A stretch of 64,000 nucleotides of DNA from Ruegeria sp. HKCCSA071 (GTDB lineage Bacteria > Pseudomonadota > Alphaproteobacteria > Rhodobacterales > Rhodobacteraceae). The DNA lies in contig NZ_JAEDOX010000001.1 in NCBI RefSeq assembly GCF_017872555.1, forward strand, positions 744,001 to 808,000, read 5' to 3'. The position numbers were made by a program, and so were the translations under genes. Numbering within the stretch: position 1 is the stretch's first letter; each line of letters opens with the position of its first letter. Positions 16,872 to 18,621 of this stretch are shown here, piece after piece. The notes beneath the pieces are model-generated. The model was not told where the DNA came from. It was given only the letters and a program-made list of their open reading frames with translations, and made no database searches.

Positions 16872-17930
16872 TCAAAACGTTCGGCTGCTTTGCGGTAAGC
16901 TCAGCCCGGACGTTACGTTGATCAGATTCATCTCGCCCATTCCCTTTATGTCAACACGTCCCAAGTCCGAGACCTGAAATTCGTCAATAAGGGCGTATTT
17001 CATTTCTTCCGGCGCAACGATTTTCATAGGATTGGCAAAAATTTGCAGTCGGGACGCGATATTTACCGCCGGACCGAAAACGTCGTAGACGTATTTCTGA
17101 ATACCCACGACAGACCCGACCGCGGCCCCCATCCCCAAACCGATCCGGGCCTGCCATTTGTGCGGGTGGCTTTCGTTACGGCGTTCGAGATAGCGCAGGA
17201 AACGTACCGCGCAATGGGCCACAGCAGTCGCGTGATCGGGTGTCGGGTCAGGCATGCCTGAGACCGCAAGATATGCGTCACCAATTGTTTTGATCCTTTC
17301 ACACCCGAATTGCTCAACGATCCTGTCAAACGCTGTGAAAATGTCGTTCAACTCGCTCAGGGTCACTGTCGGGTCGGTCTTGGCCGCGAAATCGGTGAAA
17401 CCCACAAAGTCCAGCATGACCACGGACACCTGCTTGTAGAGCTGCGGAGTGACAACACCGAAGGTTTTGAACTCTTCATAAACGGCCCGTGGCATCAGGT
17501 TCAGAAGCAGCCGTTCAACCCGTTCTTTCTCGCGCTCCAGCTCTCGCGTGTTGCGTTCGACCATAGTGGAGTAGCTGTCGATCATGCTTTCCAGCTCGCG
17601 AATGCGCGTGATGTTCTGGCATTCGACAATCAGAACCTGCTCGGAAAGCCCTTTGGCCAACGAAACTGCGACTGCAAAGATCAAGGTCCGCCGCTTCGGC
17701 TTGATTTGCAATTCAACCGAATATCTCAAGCCCGATTGCTTGACGTCTTCCAATTCTTTGGGATCAAGGGCCGGCAGAATGTCCGTAAGAGTACTGCCGT
17801 TCTCGGGGGTTCCAAACCACTCCGAAAACGGCCCGTTATGAAAAACGAACTGAAGATCCGAGGCGCGCACCACGGCAATGCCGACACCGATGGCGCGTAA
17901 CAGCTGTTCGTTTATTGCATGAATGCTCAT
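16872..17930 (-). CDS. PAS-containing class III adenylate/guanylate cyclase
   Basis: A 352-residue soluble protein. Residues about 5-115 form a PAS-like sensor (VRASDLQFVFHNGPFSEWFG). Residues 115-150 are a charged coiled coil (LESMIDSYSTMVERNTRELE). Residues 155-345 are a class III catalytic domain, with the metal-binding motif VVMLDFVGFTDFAA, a second metal-binding Asp in KTIGDAYLAVSG, and the late FGPAVNIASRL segment with the transition-state Asn and Arg. Lys/Asp-type substrate residues suggest ATP, but the GTP alternative stays open. The gene overlaps the upstream truncated haemoglobin gene by four bases (ATGA), so the products are made together and the globin may supply a haem sensor. 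Confidence 0.87.
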   Translation of the reverse strand: MSIHAINEQLLRAIGVGIAVVRASDLQFVFHNGPFSEWFGTPENGSTLTDILPALDPKELEDVKQSGLRYSVELQIKPKRRTLIFAVAVSLAKGLSEQVLIVECQNITRIRELESMIDSYSTMVERNTRELEREKERVERLLLNLMPRAVYEEFKTFGVVTPQLYKQVSVVMLDFVGFTDFAAKTDPTVTLSELNDIFTAFDRIVEQFGCERIKTIGDAYLAVSGMPDPTPDHATAVAHCAVRFLRYLERRNESHPHKWQARIGLGMGAAVGSVVGIQKYVYDVFGPAVNIASRLQIFANPMKIVAPEEMKYALIDEFQVSDLGRVDIKGMGEMNLINVTSGLSLPQSSRTF

Positions 17931-18295
17931 GCCGCGTTTCGGGCGACGATAATTGAACGCTTCCCTTCAATTGCGGCCAGCGCGGTTTTGATATCCTGAT
18001 CGGACATACCATGCACGCTCAGCGCTTCGCCAAACAGCTCAGCCATCACATCAAATTCGTCATGTGAGATACTCAGATGCCTGTGTACGGCTTCGATCCT
18101 GTCATCACTGAATGACGCCGGTCCGCCTATCAGGGACGATACAAACTTCGTCTGATGATCAATCAGCCGCGGCATATCTATATCTTCAAAATAATGGCCG
18201 ATGTCATCCGAATCCAACGCTATTTCATAGAAGGTCATCACGACACGGCTGATCGTTTTGAAGCCACCGTATTTATCATAAAGCGTTTGCGCCAC
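17927..18295 (-). CDS. Truncated haemoglobin, group I-like
   Basis: A globin of about 122 residues. It opens with the truncated-globin signature TLYDKYGGFKTISRVV. The B10 tyrosine lies in TFYEIAL, the GG-P turn in SLIGGPASF, and the proximal F8 histidine in EAVHRHLSIS. The start is uncertain: a GTG at 18295 gives MAQTLYDKYGG, which matches family N termini, while a TTG at 18307 would add four residues; neither has a clear ribosome site. Truncated haemoglobins bind O2, NO or CO. Overlap with the cyclase gene downstream suggests that this one is a gas-binding partner of cyclic nucleotide signalling, an inference from context. Confidence 0.8.
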   Translation of the reverse strand: MAQTLYDKYGGFKTISRVVMTFYEIALDSDDIGHYFEDIDMPRLIDHQTKFVSSLIGGPASFSDDRIEAVHRHLSISHDEFDVMAELFGEALSVHGMSDQDIKTALAAIEGKRSIIVARNAA

Positions 18296-18531
18296 ACGAA
18301 AACCCAAGAGTTACCGAACAAAAACACTGTAATTCTATATCAAATGGACATTTTTGTTAATGTTTGTGGTATTTTTTTCGTTTTCCGGCTTAACGCGCGT
18401 TCATTTTAGGAAAAGCAAAAGTGTCCGGGAAGTACGATCCTGCGCTTTCGAAGACCCGGCGTGGTAAACGAAACTAAGTTGTACACAGCCGAGACGCCGG
18501 GGCGGGTTTGGGCTTCTGTCCAAGGGAGTGA

Positions 18532-18621
18532 TGGCGGAGAGACAGGGATTCGAACCCTGGAGACGGTTCCCCGCCTACACACTTTCCAGGCGTGCGCCTT
18601 CGACCACTCGGCCACCTCTCC
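18532..18621 (-). tRNA. tRNA-Ser (GGA anticodon)
   Basis: A 90-nt type II tRNA on the minus strand. The acceptor stem pairs GGAGAGG with TCTCTCC, the D arm contains GGCCGAGTGGTCGAAGGC, the anticodon loop reads CTGGAAA with GGA at 18585-18587, a long variable arm follows, the T arm has GGTTCGAATCC, and the gene encodes the 3' CCA (18532-18534). It reads UCC and UCU serine codons. No integrase or phage genes adjoin it. Confidence 0.97.

Follow-up and report, generated by a model that had tools for sequence, protein, structure and literature searches.

Nearly all known haem-based gas sensors that act on cyclases are fused proteins. In the known globin-coupled sensors, a 3/3 sensor globin is fused in the same chain with its output domain. 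M. tuberculosis HbN, a group I truncated globin, is a known NO dioxygenase, and we know of no cyclase partner for it; the mycobacterial cyclases Rv1625c and Cya are membrane enzymes. Leishmania HemAC also couples a globin to a cyclic-nucleotide enzyme and is described as an O2 receptor adenylate cyclase (PMC12755159). A separate small protein that is needed by a PAS-coiled-coil-effector protein is found in the RsbQ/RsbP system (abstract of PMC3183031); unlike the case below, the small protein RsbQ is a hydrolase there and a protein phosphatase serves as output.

Here we describe a gene pair in a 64,000-nucleotide stretch of Ruegeria sp. HKCCSA071 DNA (the window), where a truncated haemoglobin gene overlaps the gene of a PAS-containing class III cyclase. 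Both proteins belong to known families, and the two-gene arrangement appears to be undescribed in the open-access papers searched: no published description of the globin-cyclase pair was found in open-access full text, in keeping with the suspicion raised in the initial annotation.

Anatomy of the globin-cyclase locus

Both genes lie on the minus strand. The features, in window coordinates, are as follows.

18332..18360, minus strand: promoter-like site TTAACA-17-TAGAAT, probable operon promoter (pattern scan and conserved block)
17927..18295, minus strand: group I (HbN-type) truncated haemoglobin (PF01152, PDB sequence match, AlphaFold, Foldseek, start alignment)
17927..17930, minus strand: four-base ATGA overlap, cyclase start within the globin stop (sequence)
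16872..17930, minus strand: class III adenylyl cyclase, 352 amino acids, ATG start, PAS domain, signalling helix and catalytic domain (PF00211, AlphaFold, Foldseek)
17613..17930, minus strand: cyclase N-terminal helix and PAS domain, residues 1-106 (AlphaFold secondary structure; weak PAS_8 and HNOBA matches)
17496..17612, minus strand: cyclase signalling helix, residues 107-145 (single AlphaFold helix; dN near 0; conservation)
16926..17450, minus strand: cyclase catalytic domain (alignment, residue table, PF00211)

The globin reading frame was listed as 17927-18307 on the minus strand, giving 126 amino acids from a TTG at 18307. This TTG is not conserved, and in relatives the stretch from it to the following start codon carries indels, whereas the GTG at 18295 (122 amino acids), which is a TTG in one relative, aligns with the starts of homologues; GTG 18295 is the more likely translation start. 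The protein matches PF01152 at 56.3 bits (Pfam cut-off 21, E=5e-15), its closest solved structures are the group I globins of Tetrahymena and M. tuberculosis (HbN), and the AlphaFold model (pLDDT 89) adopts a 2/2 fold with a Foldseek TM of 0.85 to HbN, which places it among group I (N) truncated haemoglobins. By alignment with the Tetrahymena truncated globin, whose Tyr25, Gln46 and Gln50 we take to be B10, E7 and E11, the haem pocket consists of B10 Tyr27, E7 Leu, E11 Gln52 and F8 His75. Tyr27, Gln52 and His75 are invariant among relatives, and the F8 His, B10 Tyr and glycine motifs typical of the group are all present and invariant in 28 relatives. Because of these pocket residues and the HbN-like sequence and fold, haem binding by the globin is likely.

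The cyclase matches PF00211 at 141.4 bits (E=3e-41), while its PAS_8 and HNOBA matches both stay under their Pfam cut-offs. In the AlphaFold model (pLDDT 83), an initial helix is followed by a PAS-type sheet (strands 16-22, 27-31, 70-76, 83-92 and 99-106), the helix 107-145 and a class III domain. Amino-acid changes are almost absent from the signalling helix, whose dN approaches zero in most comparisons, and no segment of the globin-cyclase pair is more conserved. In the PAS domain, A19, N32 and R81 are invariant and F35, W38, F39 and E73 nearly so, and an alignment of relatives revealed no invariant His or Cys able to ligate haem. All catalytic residues are present, namely D174 and D218 (metal), K214 and D283 (ATP specificity) and N290 and R294 (transition state), following the roles of these positions in class III cyclases. 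Together with the PF00211 match, they assign the protein to the class III (IIIa) adenylyl cyclases and predict that the enzyme is active and ATP-specific, i.e., cAMP-forming. Thus the initial annotation, which had read this locus as a single-domain truncated globin with B10 Tyr and F8 His sharing four bases with a class III cyclase that bears a PAS domain and a coiled coil, holds in each of these parts.

At the putative promoter, nine relatives share the block CATAAACGTTAACAAAAATNTCAATTTGATATAG in an alignment; the number of sites returned by the promoter pattern scan was within chance. We regard 18332..18360 as the probable operon promoter of the pair. A tRNA-Ser (GGA) lies at 18532-18621 on the minus strand, upstream of the globin promoter region.

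Comparison with known systems

When the cyclase model was searched with Foldseek, the matches spanning the PAS domain, helix and catalytic domain were soluble guanylate cyclase chains, which align over about 380 columns through PAS, signalling coiled coil and class III catalytic domain; judged from this predicted structure, soluble guanylate cyclase is the closest full-length structural analogue of the window cyclase. The two systems also share a PAS domain and signalling coiled coil ahead of the cyclase domain, a haem protein as the proposed sensor and, on the side of the window cyclase, the weak HNOBA match. However, the window cyclase has no H-NOX domain (no HNOB match in the Pfam scan), a separate truncated globin being present instead, and it carries the ATP residues K214/D283 rather than the guanylate pair. 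Because of these two differences, it is not a soluble guanylate cyclase.

The pair is likewise not a globin-coupled sensor, since the globin is encoded in its own gene and is a 2/2 group I globin matching PF01152 only, with neither a fused output domain nor membership of the 3/3 sensor-globin family. HbN is the best structural match of the globin and has the same Tyr B10/Leu E7/Gln E11/His F8 pocket, but the unpaired truncated haemoglobins compared do not share the complete set of D50, H51 and K54 discussed below. In the catalytic domain, the fold search gave 35-37% identity to Rv1625c and mycobacterial Cya (5o5k/5o5l); unlike these, the window cyclase has an N-terminal PAS domain and a globin partner gene.

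Conservation of the pair across genomes

The Pfam search of the own genome returned a single PF01152 gene and 17 PF00211 matches, so the probability that the two became adjacent by chance is well under 1%. In 76 of the 80 fetched loci, a cyclase reading frame lies directly downstream of the globin, with a gap of -10 to +21 bases, and 53 of these 76 share the same four-base overlap (gap -3). The four unpaired loci comprise L008 and L020, which cleanly lack the cyclase, L017 with a remnant and L060 at a contig end. All 37 sampled Ruegeria genomes hold at least one pair, and of 13 second Ruegeria copies that were fetched, which are about 45% identical, 12 are paired as well. The globin retained without a cyclase in a few Ruegeria (L008, L020, L150) may have some use alone or may be decaying.

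The association is reciprocal. Across 385 alphaproteobacterial genomes, every full-length cyclase match (above 390 bits, the next best scoring 192 or less) adjoins a globin match (17/17), and 16 of the 18 strong globin matches (above 110 bits) adjoin the cyclase; of the other two, one (L126) lacks it and the other (L129) overlaps a PAS-only gene. Among 12 weaker truncated haemoglobin loci that were fetched, the cyclase adjoins only L132, where the globin match is partial and the pair frameshifted. When 299 genomes were drawn across the phylum, only three members turned up, all of the same class. Pairs in metagenome-assembled genomes labelled Chloroflexi, Gemmatimonadota and Gammaproteobacteria indicate that the pair has apparently spread outside Alphaproteobacteria, although these loci could be mis-binned. 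Raw pairwise distances, which include shared ancestry, are correlated between globin and cyclase (r=0.67). In the flanks of the fetched loci, the window-type pair has no conserved third gene and no conserved reductase or denitrification gene next to it.

In all pairs examined, a stop codon separates the globin from the cyclase. The earlier proposal that the globin is a separate protein, genetically coupled to the cyclase, is supported, and the check it had called for in Rhodobacterales came out in its favor: the pair is conserved well beyond that order, and the objection that it exists only here falls. The initial annotation had mentioned neither the cAMP-type residues nor the likeness to soluble guanylate cyclase nor the degenerate clade described below. 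That the pair is kept together across many bacteria suggests a two-protein gas sensor controlling cAMP.

Some variant arrangements were also seen. The same 149-amino-acid PAS-like partner gene lacking a cyclase domain occurs at L129:1046-1492 and L160:5629-6075 (both minus strand) and still overlaps the globin by ATGA. The cyclase gene at L122:1870-2946 has one in-frame stop (TAA) between its PAS and catalytic parts. In two Ruegeria genomes, a cyclase gene is followed on the same strand, after about 250 bases, by an ordinary truncated haemoglobin (L157:617-3390 and L158:2997-5768); the L157 enzyme is a dCache-cyclase, and its neighbourhood differs from that of the window-type pair.

Partner-specific globin residues and a proposed mode of regulation

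Comparison of paired and unpaired globins revealed three residues that follow the partner. All 41 paired proteins examined have D50, H51 and K54 (41/41), which vary among 18 unpaired globins, whereas the haem-pocket residues are largely common to both groups; in all three inspected globins whose partner is absent or reduced, the set is incomplete. The three residues are located on the E helix, beside the distal site, and are a candidate docking face for the cyclase.

We consider it probable that globin and cyclase form one functional unit, in which the haem globin would sense the gas in trans for a homodimeric PAS-signalling-helix adenylyl cyclase. This sensor model builds on the observed anatomy, gene overlap, reciprocal co-occurrence and catalytic residues and on the predicted folds, from which we infer haem binding, physical interaction, the identity of the ligand and the direction of regulation. 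O2 (or NO) would bind the globin haem, where Tyr B10 and Gln E11 would read the ligand, and ligand binding would shift the distal E helix bearing Asp50, His51 and Lys54. The shift would alter how the globin docks on the PAS domain and signalling helix of the cyclase, and the altered docking would change cAMP synthesis. Such a mode would resemble that of soluble guanylate cyclase, except that a separate globin would take the place of H-NOX and that the specificity is for ATP. If true, the split sensor would offer a simple counterpart of soluble guanylate cyclase in bacteria, kept throughout at least one class and apparently further, whose sensor and enzyme could be purified apart and then mixed, and it would give a signalling function to group I truncated globins, many of which have no known role.

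Cyclase decay and histidine kinases in a derived clade

According to the residue table, 23 cyclases in L001-L080 lack N290/R294 or a metal Asp. Eighteen of them form one clade with support 98 (Roseovarius/Tropicimonas/Silicimonas); L069, of the same degenerate kind, was not part of the tree, and L049, L053 and L055 make up a second degenerate group on it. Genomes with a degenerate cyclase have no intact paired copy, G713 having a further diverged one, and purifying selection continues to act on the degenerate domain (dN/dS about 0.04-0.3). The gene directly downstream in all main-clade loci (19/19) encodes a PAS-HisKA-HATPase kinase, usually with an overlap, while L049, L053 and L055 carry a divergent hybrid kinase together with an OmpR-type regulator. 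Neither the main-clade-type kinase nor the hybrid kinase/OmpR-type regulator was present within the flanks examined of 51 intact loci. These observations point to a possible switch of output in the derived clade, where the PAS-helix protein with its decayed cyclase domain would be an adaptor passing the globin signal to a histidine kinase, a reading to which we give nearly even chances. If true, it would mean that a sensor retains its input while the output changes.

Several points weigh against this switch. The metal Asp is mostly kept, so that residual or altered activity, or a role as the C1-like half of a heterodimer, is possible. The kinase association has one origin on the tree, without independent replication, and a hybrid kinase with an OmpR-type regulator also lies 1-2 kb upstream of the intact copies L046, L161 and L219-L221. 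Since intact copies are also near a kinase, the kinase neighbour precedes the cyclase decay, and together with the single origin this led us to count the decay-kinase link as one event; two independent origins were considered and rejected, as the tree of PAS, helix and globin allows a single one. Decay and kinase may reflect a stepwise change of output from cAMP to phosphorelay, as one evolutionary event and not a statistical correlation. The switch concerns the wider family and is compatible with the sensor model for the window, whose copy is of the cAMP type. The broader generalization, that the globin and the PAS-signalling-helix protein are a portable two-protein gas module acting in trans, with cAMP as output or a histidine kinase in one clade, is put forward tentatively and with some doubt.

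Upstream of the degenerate pairs (L054:135-5971 and similar), genes for PALP-glutaredoxin, OsmC, two flavoprotein oxidoreductases/monooxygenases and an alpha/beta hydrolase are conserved.

Alternative roles of the globin

Operon co-inheritance of globin and cyclase is not proof of contact, and the HbN-like pocket also fits NO dioxygenase activity or O2 handling. The globin could be a protein of this kind, expressed together with a cyclase that works independently, both serving the same stress response without contact. Its distal Tyr B10, Leu E7 and Gln E11 are those of HbN, and L008 and L020 retain the globin alone, as this explanation would allow. However, strict two-way pairing with one cyclase subtype, not with varied stress genes, speaks against it, as do the invariance of the E-helix residues in partnered globins only and the lack of a conserved reductase or denitrification neighbour beside the window-type pair; we regard it as unlikely. 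That the globin donates haem or O2 to the PAS domain as the real sensor is highly improbable, for although the cyclase carries its own PAS domain, this domain has no invariant haem-ligating residue. The sensor model, with the globin itself as sensor, is the reading that we retain.

A group I truncated globin was also encountered within a kinase. At L130:979-3369, in Alphaproteobacteria, Pfam places one between the Hpt and dimerisation domains of a CheA, and reading of the sequences gave the same arrangement at L135, L137, L138 and L140; these proteins are possibly O2- or NO-sensing CheAs.
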